The position numbers were made by a program, and so were the translations under genes. A stretch of 46,618 nucleotides of DNA from Gaiellales bacterium. Its GTDB lineage: Bacteria; Actinomycetota; Thermoleophilia; Gaiellales; JAICJC01. The stretch is from positions 1 to 46,618 of the forward strand of contig DASWRM010000021.1 in NCBI GenBank assembly GCA_036403155.1. Reading direction: 5' to 3'. Below, piece by piece: positions 25,171 to 46,331 of this stretch (position 1 is the first letter of the stretch; each line of letters opens with the position of its first letter). A model generated the notes under the pieces. That model did no database searches. It worked only from the letters and a program-made list of their open reading frames with translations, and was not told the DNA's origin.

Positions 25171-26052
25171 CTACGCGGGCGGGCGGACGGCCGCGAGCAC
25201 CGCCGCCTTGGCCTCGCGCGAGCGGCAGAACGCGCGGAACACGGCTGCCTCGGGAAGCACCGGACCTCCCTCGCGCTCGAGCACGTACCACGAGCGGCGA
25301 AGCGGCGCGCCCGCCATCTGCACCCGGACGAGCGCGCCGGATGCGAGCTCGGGGCCCGCGGCATGGGTCGAGAGCAGCGTGACGCCGAGCCCGACGGCGG
25401 CCGCCTGCTTGACGGCGCCGTTCGAGCCGAGCGTCATCGTCGAGCGAGGCGCGATCCCGGCGTCCTCGAGGAATGCCTCGACCGTCGCGCGCGTTCCCGA
25501 CCCGCGCTCCCGCAGCAGCCACGTCTCGTCCGCGGGATCGCGCACCGGGTGGTCGGCGGCCGCCACCACCACCAGCCGGTAGTCGAGGAAGGGCGCTCCG
25601 GTGATCCCCGCGCCGGCGGGCGGCCTGCCGCCGATTGCGAGGTCGACCTGACGTCGCGCCAGCAGCTCGAACACCTGTGCGCGGTTGCCCACCTCCAGCG
25701 TGATCTCGATCGCCGGCTGCTCTCCGCGGAAGGCCTTCAGGAGCGGCGGGACGACGTGCTCGGCGGCCGTCGTCACAGCCGCAAGCCGCAGCGCCCGCGC
25801 CCCGCGGATCTCGCGCAGCGCCTGGTCGCGCAGGCCGAGCAGCTCGGCGGCGTAGCGGGCGAGCGTCTCGCCCGCTGGGGTCAGCGCGATGCCCCGGCCC
25901 TGCCGGGCGACGAGCTCGACACCGAGGTCTCGCTGCAGCGCGGCCACCGCGGCCGAGACGGCCGGCTCGGTCACGACCAGTGCGGCGGCCGCGCCGCGCA
26001 CCGAGCCGGCGCGCGCGACCGCGACAAACGTTGCGAGCTGCCCGAACGTCAT
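25171..26052 (-). CDS. LysR-family transcriptional regulator (CbbR-like by context)
   Basis: A 293-aa LTTR: N-terminal winged HTH (MTFGQLATFVAVARAGSVRGAAAAL then TEPAVSAAVAALQRDLGVELVARQGRGIALTPAG), linker helix, and a periplasmic-binding-fold effector domain (EVGNRAQVFELLARRQVDLAIGG, GLGVTLLSTHA). The ATG at 26050-26052 begins the HTH; longer frames upstream are antisense to the kinase. It is divergent from phosphoribulokinase across 75 bases, the classic cbbR arrangement, so it probably regulates that gene. This role is inferred from position only. Confidence 0.88.
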   Translation of the reverse strand: MTFGQLATFVAVARAGSVRGAAAALVVTEPAVSAAVAALQRDLGVELVARQGRGIALTPAGETLARYAAELLGLRDQALREIRGARALRLAAVTTAAEHVVPPLLKAFRGEQPAIEITLEVGNRAQVFELLARRQVDLAIGGRPPAGAGITGAPFLDYRLVVVAAADHPVRDPADETWLLRERGSGTRATVEAFLEDAGIAPRSTMTLGSNGAVKQAAAVGLGVTLLSTHAAGPELASGALVRVQMAGAPLRRSWYVLEREGGPVLPEAAVFRAFCRSREAKAAVLAAVRPPA

Positions 26053-26127
26053 GAACGGCGACGTTATCAGTCCCGGGCGATGCTTCACCGCAGGCTTCGC
26101 CGTCGTTCCGGTCGGTAGAGTGCGCAG

Positions 26128-27060
26128 ATGGCGCGACCGATCATCCTGGGCGTCGTGGGGGACTCTGCAAGCGGCAAGACCACGCTGACGCGCGGCCTCG
26201 TCCGGCTGCTCGGCCAGGAGAAGGTCTCGCTGATGTGCCTGGACGACTACCACCGGTTCGACCGGTCGCAGCGCGCGGCGATGGCGATCACGCCGCTGCA
26301 TCCCGACTGCAACCACATGGACATCATGGCCCAGCACCTTGCGCTGCTCCGGCGCGGCGAACCGGTGCTGAAACCGGTCTACCGGCACGCCGATGGCAGC
26401 TTCGGGCCGCCGGTGCGGCTGGAGCCGGGCCGTTTCCTGATCGTCGAGGGCCTGCTCGGCTACCACACCGACGCGCTGCGCGACTGCTTCGACATCCGCG
26501 TCTTCCTCGACCCGCCCGAGAGCCAGCGGCGCCGGTGGAAGGTCGTGCGCGACTGCTCGCGCCGCGGATACACGACGACGCAGGTGCTGGAGGAGATCGA
26601 CCGCCGCGAGGCCGATTCGGAGCAGTTCATCCGGCCGCAGCGCCACCACGCGGACATGGTCGTCCGCTTCTCGCCGCCGCCCGGAGCGGACGAGGGCGAC
26701 GGCACCCACCTGGACGCCCACCTGCTGCTGCGGCCGGGGCTCCCGCATCCCGACCTCTCCGACGTGGTCGGCGACGATCCCGAGCAGCGGCTGTCACTGG
26801 TCGGCGCGGACGGTGACCAGGACCTGCGAGTGCCGGGGCGCCTCGACCCGTCCGTCGCCCTGGAGCTCGAGGAGCGGATCTGGGAGCACATGCACTTCGC
26901 CAACCACCTGCGGTCGGAACGGCTCGGCGAGTTCACCGTCGGAACCGACCTGCATCGCAGCGACTCGCTCGCGATATCGCAGCTGCTCGTGCTCTACCAC
27001 CTGGTCACAGCCCGGGCCAAGGTCGCCCTGGGCGGCGCTGACGCCGCTACCCGCTCCTGA
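26128..27060 (+). CDS. prk: Phosphoribulokinase
   Basis: A 310-aa P-loop kinase that phosphorylates ribulose-5-phosphate to ribulose-1,5-bisphosphate. Seen: Walker A GDSASGKTT (residues 11-19), the family's CLDDYHRFDR, TPLHPDCNHMDIMAQHL, KPVYRHADGSFG, IVEGLLGYHTDALRDCFDIRVFLDPPESQRRRWKVVRD and HHADMVVRF. The 'N(HMD)', Tyr and Arg positions are as in Class I bacterial PRKs, and the length is slightly longer than usual (~290). There is no RuBisCO or other Calvin-cycle gene in this window. The 3' end overlaps the convergent lyase-like gene by 14 bases. Confidence 0.9.
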   Translation: MARPIILGVVGDSASGKTTLTRGLVRLLGQEKVSLMCLDDYHRFDRSQRAAMAITPLHPDCNHMDIMAQHLALLRRGEPVLKPVYRHADGSFGPPVRLEPGRFLIVEGLLGYHTDALRDCFDIRVFLDPPESQRRRWKVVRDCSRRGYTTTQVLEEIDRREADSEQFIRPQRHHADMVVRFSPPPGADEGDGTHLDAHLLLRPGLPHPDLSDVVGDDPEQRLSLVGADGDQDLRVPGRLDPSVALELEERIWEHMHFANHLRSERLGEFTVGTDLHRSDSLAISQLLVLYHLVTARAKVALGGADAATRS

Positions 27061-28558
27061 TGCCGGTCTCCCAGGCCTCGCCTGCCATGGCCTCCTCGAG
27101 CGGGGCCAGGTCGGCGAGCGGGGGAGTGCCAAGGCGCCAGCGCGGAGCCCGTTCGCGAACCTGCTCGTACACGCGGCGCGTGCCCCGGCCGAGCTCGGCC
27201 GACCGGTCGCGCAGGTCGACCGCCTGAGCCGCCAGGTACAGCTCCACGGCGGCGACGTACCGGGCCAGGCGCGCCATGTCGGCGAGGCGGCGCGCGGAGA
27301 TGGTGGTCGGGATGACGCGATCCTCGATGCCCTCGGCGACGCTGCTGGTCGGCAGCTCGAGGGTCGCCGGCTGCGCCAGCAGCCGCACCTCCGCGGCCGC
27401 CGCCGTGGCGCCGTAGACGACGATACCCAGCCCGTCCTCGCTCGAGCCGTCATCGTCCCGCAGGCCGGTCGGCAGGCCGCTGAACGCCGGGTGCGCAAGC
27501 TTGTTCGACCGCTCGCACGACGCCGTGACGACGTGCGCCAGTGCCAGCCGCAGATAGTCGATCGTCACGCCGTAGGGCACCGAGTCGAAGTTGCCGTTCG
27601 AGAGCGCGCGGCCGTCCGGGCTGATCGACGGGTTGTCGTGCGAGGCAACGAGCTCGGCCTCGACGATCGACCGCGCGTGGGCGAGCGCCACTCGCGCCGC
27701 CGAATGCGTCTGCGGAACCACCCGCATGGTGAGCGGGTCCTGGAGGTGGCGGTGCATCCCGCCGTCGATCAGCCGGCCGCCGGCGAGCAGGGCGCGCATC
27801 CGCTCGACGGCCTCAGCGATGCCGGGCACCGGCCGGGCGTCCGCGACCGCCGGGTCGAGCGCCTCGACGTTGCCCAGCATGCCCTCGAACGTCAGTGCGG
27901 CCGCCTCGTCGAAGTTGTCGAGCAGCCGCTGCACGTCGCTCATCGCGAGCGCCGTCCACCCGAGCGTGAAGGCGTTCGAGTTGACGAAGGCGAGGGCCTC
28001 CTTGTCCGTCGGCTGCCACGGCTCGAGGTCGAGGCGCGCGAGTTCCGCCGCCCAGTCGCCGTCCCCGGCCAGCGCCGAGCCGAGCTCCGCCAGCGGGCCG
28101 AGGTCCGACTGGCCGAGCGATCCGGTCGTTCGCATGCGCGGCGTGAACCCGGCATTCAGCGCGTCGACCAGCAGCTCCACCAGCTCCACCCGAACGCCGG
28201 CGCGCCCCTTCGCGAACCCGGCCGCCTGGGCGAGCATCGCGGCGCGAACCACCGCCTGCTCCACCGCGGGGCCGGTGCCCGTGCGATGCGACAGGACGAG
28301 CAGGCGGTTGAACTGGGCCTGCTCCTGCGTGCCGACCGCGACGCGCTTCAGGGCGCCCACACCGGTGGTCAGCCCGTAGACGCGCGTTCCCTCGCGCAGC
28401 AGGGACTCGGTGACCTCGCGGCCCCGCCGGATCCGCGCCGCGGCGCCGTCCGACAGCGTGACGCGACGGCCGCGCGTGGCGACCGCGGCGACATCCGCGA
28501 TCGTCAGGTGGTCGTCGAGGAGCAGGTCGCCGGCCGGCATGGCGTGATCATCACCCAT
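27047..28558 (-). CDS. Aromatic amino acid lyase homologue lacking the MIO triad
   Basis: A 503-aa member of the HutH/PAL superfamily: RVYGLTTGVGALK (Tyr61 at the catalytic Tyr position), FNRLLVLSHRTGTG, MRTTGSLGQSDLGPLAELGSAL, QDPLTMRVVPQTHSA, SNGNFDSVPYGVTIDYL and EGIEDRVIPTTI. In active HAL/PAL the segment reads G-A-S-G-D-L-x-P-L and Ala-Ser-Gly cyclises to MIO. Here it is G149-Q150-S151-D152-L, so the Ala is Gln and the Gly is missing. Standard MIO chemistry is therefore not expected. MIO-less members that release trimethylamine from betaines (ergothionase) are known. The upstream gene ends five bases before the ATG at 28558; an ATG at 28540 is an equally plausible start. Plain histidine ammonia-lyase is unlikely. 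Confidence 0.85.
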   Translation of the reverse strand: MGDDHAMPAGDLLLDDHLTIADVAAVATRGRRVTLSDGAAARIRRGREVTESLLREGTRVYGLTTGVGALKRVAVGTQEQAQFNRLLVLSHRTGTGPAVEQAVVRAAMLAQAAGFAKGRAGVRVELVELLVDALNAGFTPRMRTTGSLGQSDLGPLAELGSALAGDGDWAAELARLDLEPWQPTDKEALAFVNSNAFTLGWTALAMSDVQRLLDNFDEAAALTFEGMLGNVEALDPAVADARPVPGIAEAVERMRALLAGGRLIDGGMHRHLQDPLTMRVVPQTHSAARVALAHARSIVEAELVASHDNPSISPDGRALSNGNFDSVPYGVTIDYLRLALAHVVTASCERSNKLAHPAFSGLPTGLRDDDGSSEDGLGIVVYGATAAAAEVRLLAQPATLELPTSSVAEGIEDRVIPTTISARRLADMARLARYVAAVELYLAAQAVDLRDRSAELGRGTRRVYEQVRERAPRWRLGTPPLADLAPLEEAMAGEAWETGIRSG

Positions 28559-28563
28559 CGCGC

Positions 28564-29667
28564 TCACGCCACGTCGACGAAGGGGTCGCCGAGCGCATCC
28601 TCGAGCACGGTCACGCCCAGGCCCGGGCCGTCCGGCGAGGCCAGCCGTCCGGCGCGGGGCGCAGGCATTCCGACGGCGTTGTCGGCCGTCACCCACGCGT
28701 TGAAGTCGACCGTTGCGCCCCTGACCTGCGCCGGCGTCGACAGCGACATGTGCACCATCGCGGCGGTGTCGATGGACGCGCCGCCCGTGTCCTCGACCGT
28801 CACCTCGAGGCCCTGTCCGGCGGCGACGTCGCGCAGCAGGGCGGCCGGCGTGATGCCTCCCACCCGCGAGAGCTTGACCGTGACCCCGTCGGCGATGCCC
28901 CCCGCACGCACCGCCAGCAGATCGTCGAGCGTGACGATCGACTCGTCGAGCAGCATCGGCACGCCGCAGCGGCGACGGACGGCTGCGCACTCGCCGATCG
29001 TCGCGCACGGCTGCTCGAGCGCGTAGTCCAGCGTCCCGGCCAGGGCCGCGAACCGGATCGCGGAGGCGGACGTCCAGCCGCCGTTTGCGTCGGCGACCAG
29101 GCGGATCTCCGGTCCCGCCGCGTCACGAACCGCGAGCAGGCGCTCGACGTCCAGGGCCGGATCACCGCCCACCTTCACCTGCAGCCGGCGGTACCCGGCT
29201 GCCACCAGCCCGCCCGCCATGGCGGCCGCCTCCTCGGGAGAGTGCGGGGGGATCGAGCGGTAGAGCTCCACCGCGTCGCCGAACCGCCCGCCCAGCGCCT
29301 CGCACAGCGGCCGGCCGCGCTCGCGCGCCGCGGCGTCCCAGCAGGCCATGTCGATGGCCGAGCGCACGTACGGGTGTCCGCGCAGGAGCGCCCCCATGCG
29401 GGCGGCAAGCGCCCGCGGCTGGCCGGCGTCGAGCCCGAGCAGCTGCGGAGCCAGCTCCGCGACCCCGGCTCGTGCGCCTGCGGCGAACGCGTCGGAGTAG
29501 AACGAGCCGAGCGGCGCCATCTCGCCCCAGCCCGTCACCCCGGCCGCCGTCTCGACGGCGACGACCACGGAGTCGAACCCGTCGGCCGTACCGCCCGACG
29601 TGCCATACGTCCCCTCGGCGAACGGCTGCCACTGCCGGTACGCGCGGATGGCGGCGATCGCGCTCAA
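28564..29667 (-). CDS. Enolase-superfamily enzyme, muconate-lactonizing/dipeptide-epimerase-like subgroup
   Basis: About 367 aa. Capping domain first, then a TIM barrel: LQVKVGG (Lys165, with Gln163 where a first Lys is usual), metal ligands Asp193 (VADANGGW), Glu218 (YALEQP) and Asp241 (LLDES), and the opposite-face acid/base Lys265 (VTVKLSR). The two-Lys arrangement marks the MLE subgroup, which holds cycloisomerases, dipeptide epimerases and the betaine epimerase HpbD. No ATG fits; the TTG at 29665-29667 overlaps the upstream stop (TTGA) and is the likely start. Lying between an MttB-like and a lyase-like gene, it probably epimerises or dehydrates the same substrate. The reaction is unknown. 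Confidence 0.82.
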   Translation of the reverse strand: MSAIAAIRAYRQWQPFAEGTYGTSGGTADGFDSVVVAVETAAGVTGWGEMAPLGSFYSDAFAAGARAGVAELAPQLLGLDAGQPRALAARMGALLRGHPYVRSAIDMACWDAAARERGRPLCEALGGRFGDAVELYRSIPPHSPEEAAAMAGGLVAAGYRRLQVKVGGDPALDVERLLAVRDAAGPEIRLVADANGGWTSASAIRFAALAGTLDYALEQPCATIGECAAVRRRCGVPMLLDESIVTLDDLLAVRAGGIADGVTVKLSRVGGITPAALLRDVAAGQGLEVTVEDTGGASIDTAAMVHMSLSTPAQVRGATVDFNAWVTADNAVGMPAPRAGRLASPDGPGLGVTVLEDALGDPFVDVA

Positions 29668-31106
29668 TCGCCCAGCTCGGCCCGGCGGCGCACCACATAG
29701 GCGTCGAGCTGCTCGCGCAGGGCCGGATCCAGCGGCGGCTGCTCGTACCGGTCGAGCGCCTCGCGCCACAGCCTCGCCGCCCGCTCCGCCGCATCCTGTC
29801 CGCCCCGGGTCTGCCAGCGCTCGAAGTTCTCGGTGGACGACAACAGCGGCCGGTAGAAGCAGTCGCGGAACCGCTCGAGCGTGTGTGCAGCGCCGAAGAA
29901 GTGCCCGCCGTACCCGACCTCCCGGTGCGCGTCGAAGGCCAGGCTGGCCTCGTCGATCTCCATCGGCCGGAACTCCTCCTTGAGCACGCGCAGCATCTCG
30001 ATGTCGACGATGAACTTCTCGAAGCTCGCAACCAGCCCCGACTCCAGCCAGCCGGCCGCGTGCTCGACGTAGTGCGCCCCGGCCAGGAAGGCGGGGAGCA
30101 TGGTGTTGAGCCCCTCGTATGCGGCCTGGGCGTCCGGTGTCTGGCTCGAGGTCAGGAACCCGCCGCCCGCTCGCCACGGCACGCCGAACCGCCGCGCGAT
30201 CTGGCCCGAGGCGAGCAGGCCCAGCGCGGACTCCGGGCCGCCGAAGCCCGGCGAGCCGGACTGCATGTCGGTGTGCGAGAGGAACGAGCCCAGGATCACC
30301 GGGGCGCCGGGGCGCACGAGCTGTGTGAGGCAGAGGCCGGCCAGCGCCTCGGTCGTCTGCTGCACCAGTGCGGCCGGCGTCGAGACGGGCGCCATCGCGC
30401 CCATCAGCAGGAACGGGGTGATCACGTTCACCTGCCCGGCCTCCGCGTAGACCAGCATCGCCTCGAGCATGCGCGTGTCGAAGCGCAGCGGCGAGTTCGC
30501 GTTGACCACCGCGAAGACGCGGGCCTCGGGCCGTTCGGGGTCGTTGGCGCCGTGCAGGATGTCCGTCATCGCGATCGAGTCGCGGGCCGCCTCACCGGTG
30601 ATGACGGCCCCGAGATATGGCTTGTCGGTGAGCGTCTGAACGGCGAGCAGCATGTCCAGGTGGCGCGAGTCGAGCGGCCGGTCGTTCGGCTCGCAGCAGA
30701 GACCGCCCGGCGTGTCCAGCTCGTCGAACACCTGGCTGAGCTGCGCGAGCTGCTCGAAGTCGGCCATCGTCGCCTCGCGCCGCTCGTCGCCCATCCGGAC
30801 GAACGGCGGCCCCTGCGTGGGGGCGAAGAACATGTGGCGTCCGCCGACGTGGATGGTGCGCTCGGGATTCCGCGCCGCCAGATCGAACTCGGACGGCGCC
30901 TTCGCCACCTGCTCGAGCACGAACTCCGGGTCGAACCTCACGACGTTCCCGTCGACCGCCTGGCCGGCCCGGCGGAACCGGTCGACGGCCTCGTCGTGCA
31001 GGAACTCGACGCCCATCTCCGAGATCAGGCGGCGCCAGCCCCGCTCGAGAACGGCCATCGCCTCCTCGGAGAGCACCTCATAGCGGGGCATCAGGTTCTC
31101 GAACAC
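29664..31106 (-). CDS. MttB-superfamily (trimethylamine/glycine-betaine-type) corrinoid methyltransferase, non-pyrrolysine
   Basis: About 480 aa, homologous to the MttB superfamily: MPRYEVLSEEAMAVLERGWRRLI, GVEFLHDEAVDRFRRAG, HMFFAPTQGPPFVRMGDERREATMADF, NANSPLRFDTRMLEAMLVYAEAGQ, TPFLLMGAMAPVS and AGAHYVEHAAGWLESGLVASFEKF. The frame runs the full family length with no internal TAG, so it lacks the pyrrolysine of true TMA methyltransferase. Non-Pyl members demethylate quaternary amines (glycine betaine, proline betaine, carnitine), passing CH3 to a corrinoid protein. No corrinoid protein is nearby. I take the GTG at 31104-31106; ATG at 31091 is the alternative. First gene of the operon with the enolase-type and lyase-type genes. 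Confidence 0.88.
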   Translation of the reverse strand: MFENLMPRYEVLSEEAMAVLERGWRRLISEMGVEFLHDEAVDRFRRAGQAVDGNVVRFDPEFVLEQVAKAPSEFDLAARNPERTIHVGGRHMFFAPTQGPPFVRMGDERREATMADFEQLAQLSQVFDELDTPGGLCCEPNDRPLDSRHLDMLLAVQTLTDKPYLGAVITGEAARDSIAMTDILHGANDPERPEARVFAVVNANSPLRFDTRMLEAMLVYAEAGQVNVITPFLLMGAMAPVSTPAALVQQTTEALAGLCLTQLVRPGAPVILGSFLSHTDMQSGSPGFGGPESALGLLASGQIARRFGVPWRAGGGFLTSSQTPDAQAAYEGLNTMLPAFLAGAHYVEHAAGWLESGLVASFEKFIVDIEMLRVLKEEFRPMEIDEASLAFDAHREVGYGGHFFGAAHTLERFRDCFYRPLLSSTENFERWQTRGGQDAAERAARLWREALDRYEQPPLDPALREQLDAYVVRRRAELGD

Positions 31107-34945: not shown

Positions 34946-36055
34946 TCAGCCCCAGAGGCGGGCGGCGGCCTCCGCGATCGTGCGCAGCTTGGCGCGCTCG
35001 TCGTCCACGGTGACGGCGTTGCCGATCACGGACGTCGCGAACCCGCACTGCGGCGAGATCGCGAGCCGCTCGAGGTCGATGTGCGCGGCGGCCTCGCGCG
35101 TGCGCCGCTGGAGTTCGTCGGCGGTCTCCCGGCGTCCGGACTTCGTCGTGACCAGCCCGAGCACCACCATACGGTCGTCGGGCACCTCGCGCAGCGGCTC
35201 GAACCCGCCGGACCGCTCGTCGTCGTACTCGAGCAGCAGCCGCTGCGCCCGGACGCCGCGGAACACGCGTGGCGCGATCGGGTCGTAGCCGCCGGACACG
35301 AGCCAGCGGCTGCCCTGGTTGCCGCGGCAGAGGTGGAAGCCGAACGTGACCCCCGGCGCCGCGTCGATCACCGCGTTGTCGAGCTCGATGCCGCGGTCGA
35401 GCCATCGCTCCAGCGTCCAGCCCTGCGATTCGTAGAACGCCCGCGTGGCGGGATCGATCAGCAGCGGGTAGTGGGGCGCGTCGAGCTGGAGGTAGACGGC
35501 GCCCAGCCGGGCCAGCTCCCGCACCTCGTCGCACATGATGGCCACGACGTCCTCGAGGAACGCGTCCAGGGTCGGATAGGCGTCGCGCGACACGTCCGGC
35601 GACCAGAGGTTCGCGTATAGGCTGGGGCTTGTCAGCGTCACCTTCGGGATCCGCGTGGTGCGGCCGCGCAGGTACGTGAGCTCCTCGGCCGCGATGTGCC
35701 GGCGCCTCGCGAGCGGCTGTTTCACGCCGAGCCGGGGCGGCCGGTCGGTGGCCTTGTCGCCGACGTCCTGGCCGCCGTGCCACTCGCCCCAGAGGTAGGC
35801 ATCGAGCGGAACCTCGCCGAAGCCGTCGACCGCGTCCGGCAGGCCGCTCTGGAAGGACAGGCGGCGCATCTCGCCGTCGGTCACGACGTCGATGCCGGCC
35901 TGCTCCTGGAGGCGCACGGCGGCGTCGACGGCCTCGTCCTCGATGCGCTTGAACTCCGGCGGGGCAAGGTCACCGCGCTCGAAGCGCTCACGGGCGGCGA
36001 GCAGCTCAGGCGGGCGCAGCAGGCTGCCGACGACGTCAGTATGGGCGCGCACCAT
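34946..36055 (-). CDS. MetE C-terminal-domain-like zinc methyltransferase (core-MetE type)
   Basis: A 369-aa TIM-barrel protein equal in size to the catalytic domain of cobalamin-independent methionine synthase. It keeps the zinc ligands: His241-x-Cys243 in FGFHLCRGN, Glu276 in LLLEYDDE and Cys337 in ISPQCGFAT; VGSLLRPPEL and DVVTDGEMRR mark the barrel start. Core-MetE proteins without the N-terminal half transfer methyl groups to homocysteine from donors other than polyglutamyl folate, or serve other thiols. The ATG at 36053-36055 begins the conserved part. Near an MttB-like demethylase this may form part of methyl-group handling, which is inference. Confidence 0.82.
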   Translation of the reverse strand: MVRAHTDVVGSLLRPPELLAARERFERGDLAPPEFKRIEDEAVDAAVRLQEQAGIDVVTDGEMRRLSFQSGLPDAVDGFGEVPLDAYLWGEWHGGQDVGDKATDRPPRLGVKQPLARRRHIAAEELTYLRGRTTRIPKVTLTSPSLYANLWSPDVSRDAYPTLDAFLEDVVAIMCDEVRELARLGAVYLQLDAPHYPLLIDPATRAFYESQGWTLERWLDRGIELDNAVIDAAPGVTFGFHLCRGNQGSRWLVSGGYDPIAPRVFRGVRAQRLLLEYDDERSGGFEPLREVPDDRMVVLGLVTTKSGRRETADELQRRTREAAAHIDLERLAISPQCGFATSVIGNAVTVDDERAKLRTIAEAAARLWG

Positions 36056-41286: not shown

Positions 41287-42404
41287 GCCGCTGCTCCCGT
41301 CATGTCGAGCACCGCCCGAAGCGCCGACCCGGACTGGAGGAGGGCGAACGCCTCGTCGATGCGGTCGAGCGGCAACCTATGCGAGATCAGCCGGTCGAGC
41401 GGCAGGCGGCCGCGGCGGTAGGCGTCGAGGATGACCAGGAAGTCACGCTCCGGGCGCGCCGATCCGTACAGCGCGCCGATCACCCGGCGCTCCATGCGCG
41501 GGATGCTGAGCGCGGGCAGCGGCACGACGGCGTCCTCTCGCGGAATGCCGATGCAGACGGCGGCACCGCGGCGGCGGGTGCTGAGGAACGCCGCGAGCAT
41601 CGCTTCCGGGCGTCCCGTCGCCTCGAACGCGAAGTCGACGCCGCCCCCGCTCACCGCCGCGACGGCCTCGGCGGTCGCCTCGGGCGAGCCCGCCCACTCG
41701 ACCGCGTCCGTCGCGCCCAGCTCCAGGGCCGCCTCCAGCTTGGCGCCGTCCACGTCGACCGCGACGATCGGAGACGCGGACACGGCGGCGAGCCCGATCA
41801 CGGCCGACAGGCCGACGCCCCCGCAGCCGACCACGGCCGCTCGCTGGCCCGGGCGCACGTTCGCCGACCGCCAGACCGCGCAGATGCCGGTGGTAACCGC
41901 GCACCCGACCAGCCCTGCGATCTCGAGCGGCACGTCCGCCGGGATAGCGACGCACGAGCGCTCCGGCACGACGGCGTGCTCGGCGAACGACGACAGGAAC
42001 GAGTAGTGGTGGACGGGCTCGCCACCGCGGGACAGGCGGGTCGTCCCGTCCAGGAGGGTGCCCCGCGCCATCATCGGCCACGCCGTCCCGCAGAGGTGGG
42101 GCAGGTCGTCCAGGCACTCGGCGCACCGGCCGCACGACGGTGCCCACGACAGCGCGACGTGGTCGCCCGGCGCCACCCGCGTCACGCCGGGCCCGACCTG
42201 CTCCACGACGCCGCCGCCCTCGTGGCCGAGCACCGCCGGGCACGGCGTCTCGGCCGTGCCGTCGATCGCGTTCATGTCCGAGTGGCAGACGCCGCTCGCG
42301 TGGATGCGTACGAGCACCTCGCCGGCACCGGGCGGCGCCAGCTCGAGCTCCGTGACGACGAGCGGGTCGCCGACCCGCTCGAGCACCGCGGCCCGGGTGA
42401 TCAC
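41283..42404 (-). CDS. Zinc-dependent medium-chain alcohol dehydrogenase
   Basis: A 373-aa MDR: catalytic zinc motif GVCHSDMNAIDG and GHEGGGVVEQVG, the structural zinc Cys set CGRCAECLDDLPHLC, catalytic Cys in GLVGCAVTTG, and NAD-binding AVVGCGGVGLS. It is closest in outline to class III/NDMA-type dehydrogenases that act on alcohols or thiol-formaldehyde adducts. A GTG start overlaps the ABC ATPase stop (GTGA) and its own stop overlaps the fae start, so it may make or remove the aldehyde that Fae handles. Confidence 0.9.
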   Translation of the reverse strand: MITRAAVLERVGDPLVVTELELAPPGAGEVLVRIHASGVCHSDMNAIDGTAETPCPAVLGHEGGGVVEQVGPGVTRVAPGDHVALSWAPSCGRCAECLDDLPHLCGTAWPMMARGTLLDGTTRLSRGGEPVHHYSFLSSFAEHAVVPERSCVAIPADVPLEIAGLVGCAVTTGICAVWRSANVRPGQRAAVVGCGGVGLSAVIGLAAVSASPIVAVDVDGAKLEAALELGATDAVEWAGSPEATAEAVAAVSGGGVDFAFEATGRPEAMLAAFLSTRRRGAAVCIGIPREDAVVPLPALSIPRMERRVIGALYGSARPERDFLVILDAYRRGRLPLDRLISHRLPLDRIDEAFALLQSGSALRAVLDMTGAAA

Positions 42405-44488
42405 CCGGCGGCCGGGGCCGGGTCGCCGTCCACGGCGCCGACCGGCTCCGCCGGCTCGTTCTGCAGGCGCCGCAGCTCGTCGATCGGGATGTGACAGCGG
42501 ATGTGGTGCCCCGGCTCGACCTCCGCCAGCGGCGGCTCGCTGTTCACGCAGACGTCGCCCAGGAACCGCGGGCAGCGGGTGTGGAAGACGCAGCCGGTGG
42601 GCGGATCGGCCACGCTCGGCACCTCGCCGGACAGCCGGATCCGTTCGCGCTCGCCGCCCAGCGTCGGCACGGCGGAGAGCAGCGCCTCCGTGTAGGGGTG
42701 GTGCGGGCCGTCGAACACGACCTCGGCGGGGCCCAGCTCCATCAGCCGGCCGAGGTAGAGCACCGCGATCCGGTCCGACAGGTACCGGACGACGCCGAGG
42801 TCGTGGGAGATGAAGAGGTACGAGACGTGACGGTCCCGCTGCAGGTCGACGAGCAGGTTGAGGATCGCCGCCTGGACAGAGACGTCGAGCGCGCTGGTCG
42901 GCTCGTCGCAGACCACCACCTTCGGATCGCCGGCGAAAGCGCGGGCGATCGCGACCCGCTGCTTCAGCCCGCCGGACAGCGCGGTCGGGCGGACGGAGAG
43001 GTGGCGCTCCCGGAGCCGGACGCTGTCGGCCAGCGCCCGCAGCCGCTCCTCGCGCGCCTTGCCACGGAGGCCGGCGAGCTGCGAGAGCGCGCGGCCGATC
43101 AGCCGTCGCACCGTGTGGCTGCGGTTGAGCGCGCTGTCGGGGTTCTGGAACACGATCTGCAGCGCCGCCTGCTCCTCCTCGCCGCGCTTACCGACGCGGG
43201 AGGCGAGCGAGCGCCCGTCCATCTCGATGCTGCCGCCCTCATCCGGCTCGATGATGCCGAGGATGCTCTTCGCCAGAGTGGTCTTGCCGCTGCCGGATTC
43301 GCCCACGAGCCCGAGCGTCTCGCCCGGCCAGATCTCGACGGTGACGCCGTCCAGCACGTGCACCGCCGCTCCCGCCTGCCGGAACGTCTTGCCGACGTCG
43401 TTCGCCTTCAGCAGCGGCACGTCCCCGCGGGGGGCGGGGGCGCCGGCCGCGATGTCGGCGGGCGTGGTTCGCGGCATCGCGGGCGCCTGCTGCCAGTGGT
43501 AGCAGCGGCTGATGTGGCCGGGAGCGGTCTCGACGGGGGGTGGAGGGCTGGCGTGGCACTCGTCGGTCGCGAGCGGGCAGCGGTCCGAGAACACGCAGCC
43601 CTGGAGGAACGCCCCGGGGAGCGGGAGGAACCCGGGGATGGTGTCGAGCCGGCCATGATCCTTGCGGTGGCCGCGCGCCGAGATGCAGCGCAGCAGGCCG
43701 ACGGTGTAGGGGTGCCGCGGATTCGCCAGCACCTCGGCGGACAGGCCCTCCTCGACCAGCTCGCCCGCGTAGAGCACGCCGATGCGGTCGCACATCTTCG
43801 AGATCACGCCGAGGTCGTGCGAGATGAACAGCACGGCGGTGTTGAACTCGGCCCGCAGGTGTGAGACCAGGTCGAGCACCTCGGCCTCGACCGTTGCATC
43901 GAGCGCGGTCGTCGGCTCGTCGAGGATCAGCAGCGTCGGGTCGGACGCGAGCGCCATCGCGATCACCACGCGCTGCTGCATGCCGCCGGAGAGCTGGTGG
44001 GGATAGCGCTGCGCCACCGAGTCGACGTCGGCGATCTGCACCTTGCGCAGCATGCCGGTCGCGAGGTCGCGTGCTTCCTTGCCGCGCTTCCCGGCCACCT
44101 CGAACGCCTCGGCCACCTGCCGGCCGATGCGGATGGACGGGTTGAGCGCGCGGCTCGGATCCTGGTAGACCATCGAGACGGGGCCTGCCCGGAGCCGACG
44201 CAGATCCGGGGCCGACATCGCCGTCAGGTCGCGGCCGTCGATGCGGATCGACCCGCTGCGGATACGGCCGTTGCCCGGCAGGTAGCGGACAGCCGCCTGG
44301 GCGACCGTCGATTTCCCGCATCCCGACTCGCCGACGAGCCCGTAGCTCTCGCCCTGGCCGATCGTGAACGAGATGCCGCGGAGCACCTGCCGGTCGATCC
44401 CGCGCACCCGGTACGCCACATCGAGGTCGAGCACCTCGAGCGCGGGCGCGGTGGCGACGGGCGTCTCGACGACGAGGTCCGCGCTCAT
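42401..44488 (-). CDS. Oligopeptide-type ABC importer, two ATPase domains fused (DppD-DppF)
   Basis: A 695-aa protein holding both nucleotide-binding domains. NBD1: GESGCGKST (53-61), [34 protein letters not shown], then the oligopeptide-type C-terminal Cys cluster ([15 protein letters not shown]). NBD2: GESGSGKTT (about 400), [35 protein letters not shown] and a second [10 protein letters not shown] Cys tail. The two Cys tails are typical of DppD and DppF, which are separate genes in most bacteria. It energises import with the two permeases upstream, into which its ATG start overlaps by four bases. Confidence 0.93.
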
Positions 44489-45378
44489 TCCGTCACCGCC
44501 CGCTGCAGGCCGTCAGCGATCAGATTCACGGCCACGACGAGCGACGCGATCGCCATGGCCGGGCCCAGCGACTCCCACCAGAAGCCGGCCGAGATCAGCG
44601 CGTAGGCGTCGTTGATCTGGGCGCCCCAGTCGGGCGACGGCGGCTGCGGCCCGAAGCCCAGGAACGAGAGCGTGGCGACCGCGAAGATGGCATAGCCGAC
44701 GCGCACGGTGAACTCGACGAGGACCGGCGGCAGCACATTCGGCAGCACCTCGGCGAAGAGGATGTAGGGCGCCTTCTCGCCGCGCAGCTCCGCCGCGGTG
44801 ACGTACTCCTGCTCGCGCTCCGAGAGCACGGCTGCGCGCACTGTGCGTGCGATGATCGGGGCGAACACCAGCCCGATCACGAGCACCAGCGTGAGGTTGG
44901 AGGTGCCCGTGGCGGCCAGCACGGTGAGCGCGACGATTACCAGGGGCAGCGCCAGCACCGCCTCCACCATGCGGCTGAGAATGTCGTCCGTGAGCCCGCG
45001 GAAGTAGCCCATCGTGAGCCCCAGCGCCGTGCCCAGGATCGTGCCGAGCAGCGTCGCCAGCGGAGCCACCAGCAGGATGTTGCGCGATCCCACGATCACA
45101 CGAGAGAAGACGTCGCGGCCGAGCGCGTCGGTGCCGGCCCAGTGCGCCGACGACGGGCGCGCGTTGTGGTCGAGCAGGTTCTGCTGGTAGGCGTCGTGCG
45201 GTGCGATGTGGCTGCCGAACAGCGCGCAGAGCACCCAGAACGCCAGGATCAGGCCACCCACCCACACGGTCTTCGAGCGGAGGATCAGGCGCAGCGTCTC
45301 GCGACGCGCCTGGGCGGCGGTCTCGGTCGCGGGCTGGAGGACGGCCGGGTTGTTGCCCTCGGCGGTCGTCGCGCTCAC
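44485..45378 (-). CDS. ABC permease, DppC/OppC type
   Basis: A 297-aa permease: cytoplasmic N-terminus ARRETLRLILRSKTVWVGGLILAFW, the DppC signature HWAGTDALGRDVFSRVIVGSRNILLVA, and the EAA loop EYVTAAELRGEKAPYILFAEVLPNVLPP, with about six membrane helices. GTG start at 45376-45378 overlaps the upstream permease stop (GTGA). It forms the channel with the DppB-type partner. Confidence 0.92.
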   Translation of the reverse strand: MSATTAEGNNPAVLQPATETAAQARRETLRLILRSKTVWVGGLILAFWVLCALFGSHIAPHDAYQQNLLDHNARPSSAHWAGTDALGRDVFSRVIVGSRNILLVAPLATLLGTILGTALGLTMGYFRGLTDDILSRMVEAVLALPLVIVALTVLAATGTSNLTLVLVIGLVFAPIIARTVRAAVLSEREQEYVTAAELRGEKAPYILFAEVLPNVLPPVLVEFTVRVGYAIFAVATLSFLGFGPQPPSPDWGAQINDAYALISAGFWWESLGPAMAIASLVVAVNLIADGLQRAVTE

Positions 45379-46331
45379 GATGCGTCGCCCCCCACCCGGA
45401 TCCGCGGGTTCAGCGCGGCCGACAGGATGTCGGCCGTGAGGGTGGCCAGGAGGTAGACCACGCCGACCAGCAGCACCGCCGACTCGAGCACGGGGTAGTC
45501 CTTCTGGTGGGCGGCGTTGAAGAGCAGCTGGCCGACGCCGTTGTAGTTGAACAGCCGCTCGACCACCACCAGGCCGCCGATCAGATATCCCGTCTGCGTG
45601 GCGACGACGGCGATCGTCGGCAGGAGCGAGTTGCGCAGGACGTGCCGGAAGATTACCGTGCGGCGGGACAGGCCCTTCAGGTATGCCGTGCGGGTGTAGT
45701 CGGAGTGCAGTGCGTCGATCGTGCCCGCGCGGGAGATGCGGGCGATGTAGCCGAACAGGACGAGGGTCAGTGCGAGCGCGGGGAGGAGCAGGTACTTGAG
45801 CTGCTCGATCGGGCCGGTGCCCGGCGGCCAGGATGCGGACACGGGGAGCAGGTTCAGCCACAGCCCGAAGATCGACAGCAGCACGATGCCTCCGACGAAT
45901 TCCGGCATCACGGCGGCGGACAGGCCGCCGACGGAGATCACCCGGTCGACCCACCGCCCCTCGTTGAGCGCGGACACGACGCCGCCGAGGATTCCCAGAG
46001 GGACGACGAGCACGAACGCCAGGAGCGCCAGCTTCAGCGAGTTGTCGAGCGCCGACCTGAGCATGTCGGACACCGGCCGCTTCTGGGCGTAGGACGTGCC
46101 GAGGTCACCGCGCACCACGCCGCCGATCCAGTCGCCGTACTGGGTGATCAGCGGACGGTCGGTGCCGAGGTCGTGGTTGATCGCCTTCACCGTTGCCTCG
46201 CTGGCGAACGGACCGGCGAGCGCCCGGCCCGGGTTGCCTGGAAGCACCGTCGTGCCGAGGAAGATCAGCATGGACAGCAGCCACAGGGTGACCAGGCCGA
46301 GCGCAAACCGTTTTGCGAGAAAGCGGATCAT
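45375..46331 (-). CDS. ABC permease, DppB/OppB type
   Basis: A 318-aa permease: MIRFLAKRFALGLVTLWLLSMLIFLG, PGNPGRALAGPFAS, GDLGTSYAQKRPVSDML and the EAA loop DYTRTAYLKGLSRRTVIFRHVLRNSLLP, with about six membrane helices. It starts 40 bases after the solute-binding protein ends. The substrates of this class include di- and oligopeptides, opines, nickel and glutathione; none can be chosen from sequence. Confidence 0.92.
   Translation of the reverse strand: MIRFLAKRFALGLVTLWLLSMLIFLGTTVLPGNPGRALAGPFASEATVKAINHDLGTDRPLITQYGDWIGGVVRGDLGTSYAQKRPVSDMLRSALDNSLKLALLAFVLVVPLGILGGVVSALNEGRWVDRVISVGGLSAAVMPEFVGGIVLLSIFGLWLNLLPVSASWPPGTGPIEQLKYLLLPALALTLVLFGYIARISRAGTIDALHSDYTRTAYLKGLSRRTVIFRHVLRNSLLPTIAVVATQTGYLIGGLVVVERLFNYNGVGQLLFNAAHQKDYPVLESAVLLVGVVYLLATLTADILSAALNPRIRVGGDAS

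Follow-up and report, generated by a model that had tools for sequence, protein, structure and literature searches.

The 46,618-nucleotide contig DASWRM010000021.1 of a Gaiellales bacterium (assembly GCA_036403155.1), hereafter the window, carries three adjacent genes for an MttB-like methyltransferase, an enolase-superfamily enzyme of the MLE subgroup and a relative of histidine ammonia-lyase (HAL) that has lost the cofactor 4-methylideneimidazole-5-one (MIO). We propose, at about even chances, that this trio forms an operon with coupled translation whose products break down an N-methylated amino acid, in the likeliest case an amino-acid betaine (alpha-trimethylammonio acid). The proposal builds on the operon structure, the loss of MIO, an ergothionase-type signature and fold in the lyase, intact catalytic residues in the enolase and a corrinoid apparatus encoded elsewhere in the genome. 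An initial annotation of the window had suggested a quaternary-ammonium pathway. This theme is supported in outline by the ergothionase-type lyase, OpuAC proteins near its clade, the corrinoid set and the substrates of known MttB enzymes (PMC12155760), whereas the betaine substrate, its identity and the order of steps are what we infer.

Three overlapping genes

The window has a G+C content of 71% and belongs to a genome of 3.2 Mb in 79 contigs (G000). The trio and the altered MIO site lie at:

29664..31106, minus strand: MttB-superfamily (non-pyrrolysine) corrinoid-dependent methyltransferase, 480 amino acids, GTG start at 31106, PF06253
28564..29667, minus strand: MLE-subgroup enolase-superfamily enzyme, 367 amino acids, TTG start at 29667, PF13378/PF02746
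27047..28567, minus strand: MIO-less aromatic-amino-acid-lyase-family enzyme, ergothionase-like, 503-506 amino acids, PF00221
28100..28123, minus strand: lyase codons for GSLGQSDL, at the GS.GASGDL position of MIO enzymes, from alignment to HAL and ergothionase

The MttB stop and the enolase start overlap by 4 bp (TTGA, 29664-29667). For the lyase there are two possible starts: ATG at 28558, five bases after the enolase gene, and GTG at 28567, which overlaps the enolase stop (GTGA). Both overlaps are also present in the orthologues of G641, a genome from another genus of the same family. Since the G641 lyase starts with the same GTGA, the enolase/lyase junction here is probably a 4-bp overlap as well, so that both junctions of the trio would be of this kind. 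The five-base gap of the initial annotation holds only with the ATG start; its three-gene operon and TTGA overlap stand. Overlaps of 4 bp are typical of translational coupling. Third codon positions have a G+C content of 0.92-0.95 in each of the three genes, which together with the family matches leaves no doubt that these reading frames are genes. Promoter and terminator scans of the trio region returned zero sites.

The lyase lacks MIO and resembles ergothionase

The lyase is a member of PF00221 (401 bits against a cut-off of 27.3). Where canonical HAL reads GSLGASGDLA, it has GSLGQS-DLG; one residue is deleted and the Ala-Ser-Gly is gone, confirming the MIO-less character noted before. The MIO triad (Ala/Thr/Cys-Ser-Gly) is missing from every trio orthologue. 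The protein is 35-40% identical to HutH overall and falls short of the NCBIfam HutH cut-off. Contig C67 of the same genome encodes a canonical HAL that does carry MIO.

Ergothionase has no MIO either (PMC13405746). When a profile of 11 MIO-less lyases was compared with the PDB, ergothionase 6s7j scored best (317 bits), followed by HAL at 311 bits. The AlphaFold model of the lyase (mean predicted local distance difference test score, pLDDT, of 84.8) likewise found its best fold match in ergothionase, with a template modelling (TM) score of 0.89-0.90, against about 0.89 for HAL structures. Aligned MIO-less relatives and ergothionase depart from canonical HAL in the same ways: LQDPL replaces VQDxY, N-F-[DE] replaces NFH with few exceptions, an x-x-N motif replaces NGT, and a lysine follows E-R (position 355 in Treponema denticola) that canonical HAL does not have. 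Tyr53, Glu411, Lys355 and the Gln/Arg positions are retained across the MIO-less clade. The lysine in the TIQKT motif of T. denticola ergothionase is missing in the window lyase, which has GIVVYGA at these columns, and is retained in the MIO-less lyase of Rhizobium lusitanum. In the phylogenetic tree the trio lyases group together as a starred clade of three on a long branch, nested within a large MIO-less group that is also starred; the branch of ergothionase is likewise long, and its placement is unsure. Sequence and model together support the assignment of the trio lyase to the ergothionase (trimethylamine-lyase) type.

The enolase and the methyltransferase

All catalytic residues of the enolase (K, D, E, D, K) are present, in QVKVGG, VADANGG, LEQPC, LLDES and VKLSRVGG. 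It thus has the second-strand lysine, the D/E/D metal ligands and the sixth-strand lysine of the MLE subgroup; the first Lys of the KxK motif is Gln, as in 4mgg. The betaine theme had earlier been tied to the epimerase HpbD, an argument that does not hold. The closest structure is 4mgg (292 bits), against about 197 bits for 4h2h/2pmq, which we take to be HpbD structures, and the protein fits neither family, reaching 342.7 bits with the NCBIfam cis-3-hydroxyproline dehydratase model, below its cut-off of 500. It is 42% identical to 4mgg, itself 89% identical to a Roseibium protein annotated as cis-3-hydroxyproline dehydratase, and 37% identical to a Paracoccus protein from an Hpb context. Outside the family, its closest relative is an uncharacterised Phyllobacterium enzyme (48%), with a Gemmatirosa protein at 46%. 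The motifs EDTGGA and WVT set the window and Phyllobacterium enzymes apart as a separate subgroup, unlike both characterised types. In Phyllobacterium zundukense, this enolase is the first gene of a plasmid operon (L152, 8995-18087) that also encodes a second enolase, a Dpp-type transporter and an Ldh-family dehydrogenase.

The MttB-like protein matches PF06253 with 596 bits (positions 25-500 of 500) and its gene has no in-frame stop or UAG, as in the non-pyrrolysine members of the superfamily. Its best PDB matches are 4yyc (407 bits) and then MtgB (2qne/9yce, about 355 bits). It also misses the NCBIfam MttB cut-off, and the earlier description of all three proteins as outlier members of their families is fair. 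The known non-pyrrolysine members act as demethylases on quaternary amines, of which almost all are carboxylated (PMC12155760), and the MtgBCD system functions in aerobic Ruegeria (PMC12478193). Partner proteins for such a reaction are encoded on contig C53: a B12-binding corrinoid protein (PF02607/PF02310), a pterin-binding methyltransferase (PF00809) and a RACo activase (PF14574), adjoining a second MttB that is 68% identical to that of the trio. Another C53 gene, at first taken as MetF-like, has no Pfam match and was not used.

Distribution of the trio in relatives

The named relatives are metagenome assemblies of Thermoleophilia (Actinomycetota). The trio occurs in three of the five genomes of the family, namely G000, G641 and G551. 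The latter two belong to another genus and keep gene order and strand, in G551 as far as the contig end, which falls within MttB. Their proteins are 73% (lyase), 64-66% (enolase) and 74-77% (MttB) identical to those of the window. In G573, which shares the genus of G000, the flanks are syntenic (phosphoribulokinase, HIBADH-like, Eis-like, cupin, ATP-grasp and MetE genes; 59-86% identity). This genome lacks the trio, however, and its phosphoribulokinase and HIBADH-like genes adjoin each other where the window has the trio. In G641, the genes around the trio are unlike those of the window. Given this presence and absence at a syntenic site and the different surroundings in G641, the trio behaves as one unit gained or lost as a block, in either direction.

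Related sets exist beyond the exact trio. G571, another member of the family, has adjacent genes on one strand for an enolase of the mandelate-racemase type, a MIO-less lyase (46%) and an MttB (60%). In two Chloroflexi assemblies (L132, L142), a stretch of about 8 kb holds genes for MttB, this type of enolase and a MIO-less lyase. The combination of enolase, lyase and MttB therefore recurs with two different enolases. RACo is present in all four family genomes with such a cluster and is not found in G573. The conservation asked for in the initial annotation is seen in these three family genomes and, more loosely, in the related sets. Single homologues outside the family are mostly scattered, an outcome that the same annotation had named as counting against its reading and that does so in part. 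The closest plasmid matches of the enolase (Phyllobacterium, Gemmatirosa) have no lyase or MttB alongside. A scan of viral contigs with the enolase as query gave no match, and no described combination of enolase, MIO-less lyase and MttB was found in the searchable literature.

Gene neighbourhoods of MIO-less lyases

One scan of 84,980 species genomes for MIO-less lyases yielded 57 loci, which were compared with 39 control loci from the same phylum that hold a canonical HAL with MIO. These controls are longer on average (18.0 kb versus 14.2 kb), making the comparison conservative for families enriched near MIO-less lyases. OpuAC betaine-binding proteins occur at 10 of the 57 loci (p 0.004), cysteine-dioxygenase-like proteins at 11 (p 0.002) and MetE-like proteins at 8 (p 0.012), each against 0 of the 39 controls, although these p-values overstate the enrichment because the probes came from the MIO-less loci themselves and the loci are mutually related. 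Amidohydrolase_2 (7/57) and rhodanese (6/57) are also absent from the controls (0/39 each). The enolase family MR69 is weakly enriched (9/57 versus 2/39, p 0.10). The lyase of R. lusitanum is flanked by OpuAC systems on both sides. With the OpuAC, cysteine dioxygenase and rhodanese neighbours, this locus points to imported betaines as putative substrates of the clade, sulfur-bearing (e.g. ergothioneine) at some loci.

Cysteine-dioxygenase-like, rhodanese and amidohydrolase_2 genes stand beside MIO-less lyases at L091, L095, L101, L103, L105, L108, L119, L121 and L139. Their gene content suggests an aerobic degradation pathway for ergothioneine-type sulfur betaines in Actinomycetota. In an uncultured Thermoleophilia assembly (L126, 3278-9001), two HAL-family genes enclose three tandem MttB paralogues. 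The MIO-less lyase of L127 (CAMDVX010000035.1), a record titled Bifidobacterium breve, groups with uncultured actinobacterial assemblies, and that species name is probably wrong.

Flanking genes of the window

Two further features of the window lie outside the operon and serve as context only:

34946..36055, minus strand: MetE-core-like protein, PF01717 (56.7 bits)
42401..46331, minus strand: Dpp/Opp-type ABC transporter ATPase and two permeases, by Pfam

The MetE-like protein keeps the zinc-ligand pattern HxC, E, C. It had been proposed as a methyl acceptor for the trio. The gene is indeed there, 4 kb from the trio, and relatives 64-86% identical to its product directly adjoin MIO-less lyases; a role in the trio pathway is conceivable on these grounds. 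In G573, a MIO-less lyase gene stands head-to-head with MetE beside a Dpp transporter (L077, 9071-11668), whose genes are homologues of the Dpp/Opp genes of the window. In the window, MetE and Dpp genes are present without such a lyase partner.

The P5C (delta-1-pyrroline-5-carboxylate) dehydrogenase, phosphoribulokinase, LysR, HIBADH-like and cupin genes were rejected as parts of the pathway, as they are kept in the trio-less G573. The phosphoribulokinase lies next to a CbbR-like LysR regulator (25171-27060); no RuBisCO gene was noticed near this pair, though no search for one was made.

Proposed mechanism and alternatives

In the proposed route, the enolase would take the alpha-proton of the betaine and invert the alpha-carbon, yielding a stereoisomer that the other enzymes accept; alternatively, it might eliminate a beta-hydroxyl. 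The lyase would strip the alpha amine without an electrophilic cofactor, giving an unsaturated acid and trimethylamine, as ergothionase does with ergothioneine. Such a cofactor-free elimination appears feasible, since quaternary amines leave readily even without activation. The MttB-like protein would demethylate the quaternary amine and load the methyl group onto the corrinoid protein encoded on C53, from which the pterin-binding methyltransferase would pass it to folate.

Several observations weigh against this route. Should the lyase release trimethylamine, this product would not be an expected substrate of a non-pyrrolysine MttB. The two enzymes might therefore work side by side or each on its own substrate, perhaps as separate branches for two stereoisomers or two methylation states. 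The long, separate branch of the trio lyase means that its substrate may differ from those of the OpuAC-linked clade members. The exact trio is conserved in one family only. No betaine transporter, of the anticipated BCCT or ProVWX type or otherwise, was seen directly beside the trio; the Dpp/Opp-type system is 11-15 kb away. Finally, MttB shows no significant enrichment around MIO-less lyases (9/57 versus 5/39, p 0.46), and an argument from such enrichment was dropped. We give the recurrence of the combination with two different enolases more weight than this low count.

The kinship with ergothionase raises the question whether the operon degrades ergothioneine or hercynine, with the lyase as ergothionase proper and the other two enzymes as accessories. 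The nearest structure to the lyase and the sulfur genes at other loci of the clade would fit a sulfur betaine. However, dioxygenase, rhodanese or thiourocanate-processing genes were not seen beside the trio, its lyase sits on a separate long branch, and the TIQKT lysine missing there is retained in the betaine-transporter-linked Rhizobium enzyme, so we consider this unlikely. A (hydroxy)proline-betaine route, in which the enolase is a cis-3-hydroxyproline(-betaine) dehydratase/epimerase, MttB removes N-methyl groups and the product is opened or deaminated by the lyase, is similarly improbable. It draws on the similarity of the enolase to 4mgg and the Hpb-context enzyme, and on MtpB, an MttB-superfamily member that takes proline betaine, as cited in PMC12478193. 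Against it stand the enolase score below the family cut-off (343 versus 500 bits), the EDTGGA/WVT motifs that its Phyllobacterium relative has and both characterised types do not, and the P5C dehydrogenase, a mere neighbour since the trio-less genome has it too.

That the genes are co-transcribed yet functionally separate, e.g. an acquired block of unrelated catabolic enzymes, would agree with the lack of MttB enrichment and with most MIO-less lyases outside the family having neither MLE nor MttB neighbours. We regard this as quite improbable, as the reading-frame overlaps are retained in another genus and sets with another enolase occur elsewhere. Least probable, and remote, is the reading of the lyase as a HAL paralogue that has lost its activity or as a plain ammonia-lyase. 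The lyase shares fold, family and appreciable identity with HAL, but its MIO triad is deleted while the Tyr, Glu, Lys and Gln/Arg positions are kept clade-wide, and the genome already has a canonical HAL.

Taken together, our preferred interpretation remains the betaine operon. Beyond it, we tentatively suggest, with less confidence, a new pathway in which an enolase-type racemase/dehydratase, a MIO-independent amine-lyase and a corrinoid methyltransferase act on one betaine, along with a large family of lyases for quaternary ammonium compounds, MIO-less and so far unrecognised, that spans Actinomycetota and Chloroflexota, has several substrate classes and includes ergothionase as only one member. 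Ergothionase has been reported as confined to few bacterial genera, in a paper that also warns that divergent homologues may be missed (PMC13405746). The relatives from our single scan share an active-site signature and lie near genes for betaine transporters or sulfur metabolism. Should they prove to be lyases of quaternary amines, trimethylamine release from amino-acid betaines by soil bacteria would be far commoner than assumed, and the trio would offer a testable case in which this release is coupled to corrinoid demethylation.

Comparison with known systems

Ergothionase (T. denticola, PDB 6s7j/6s7q) shares with the trio lyase the HAL-family fold, the same one-residue gap at the MIO site, LQDPL, N-F-E and the invariant lysine and glutamate. 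Identity in the fold alignment is 29%, however, and the trio lyase is without the TIQKT lysine and is encoded in an operon with MLE and MttB. The enolase has the subgroup and catalytic residues of cis-3-hydroxyproline dehydratase 4mgg and HpbD, and the DFN strand motif of 4mgg, but differs from them in its low identity, its score under the NCBIfam cut-off and its EDTGGA/WVT motifs. Like core MetE (PF01717), the MetE-like protein has the HxC, E, C ligands; unlike core MetE, it is one of a group whose genes occur next to MIO-less lyases, and it is no part of the trio. MtgB, MtpB and MtcB, and the MtgBCD system of Ruegeria pomeroyi, resemble the trio MttB in PF06253 and the absent pyrrolysine codon, and the genome encodes the corrinoid protein, pterin-binding methyltransferase and reductive activase of such systems. 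In contrast to these systems, the trio MttB lies apart from the corrinoid genes and is coupled to an enolase and a lyase.
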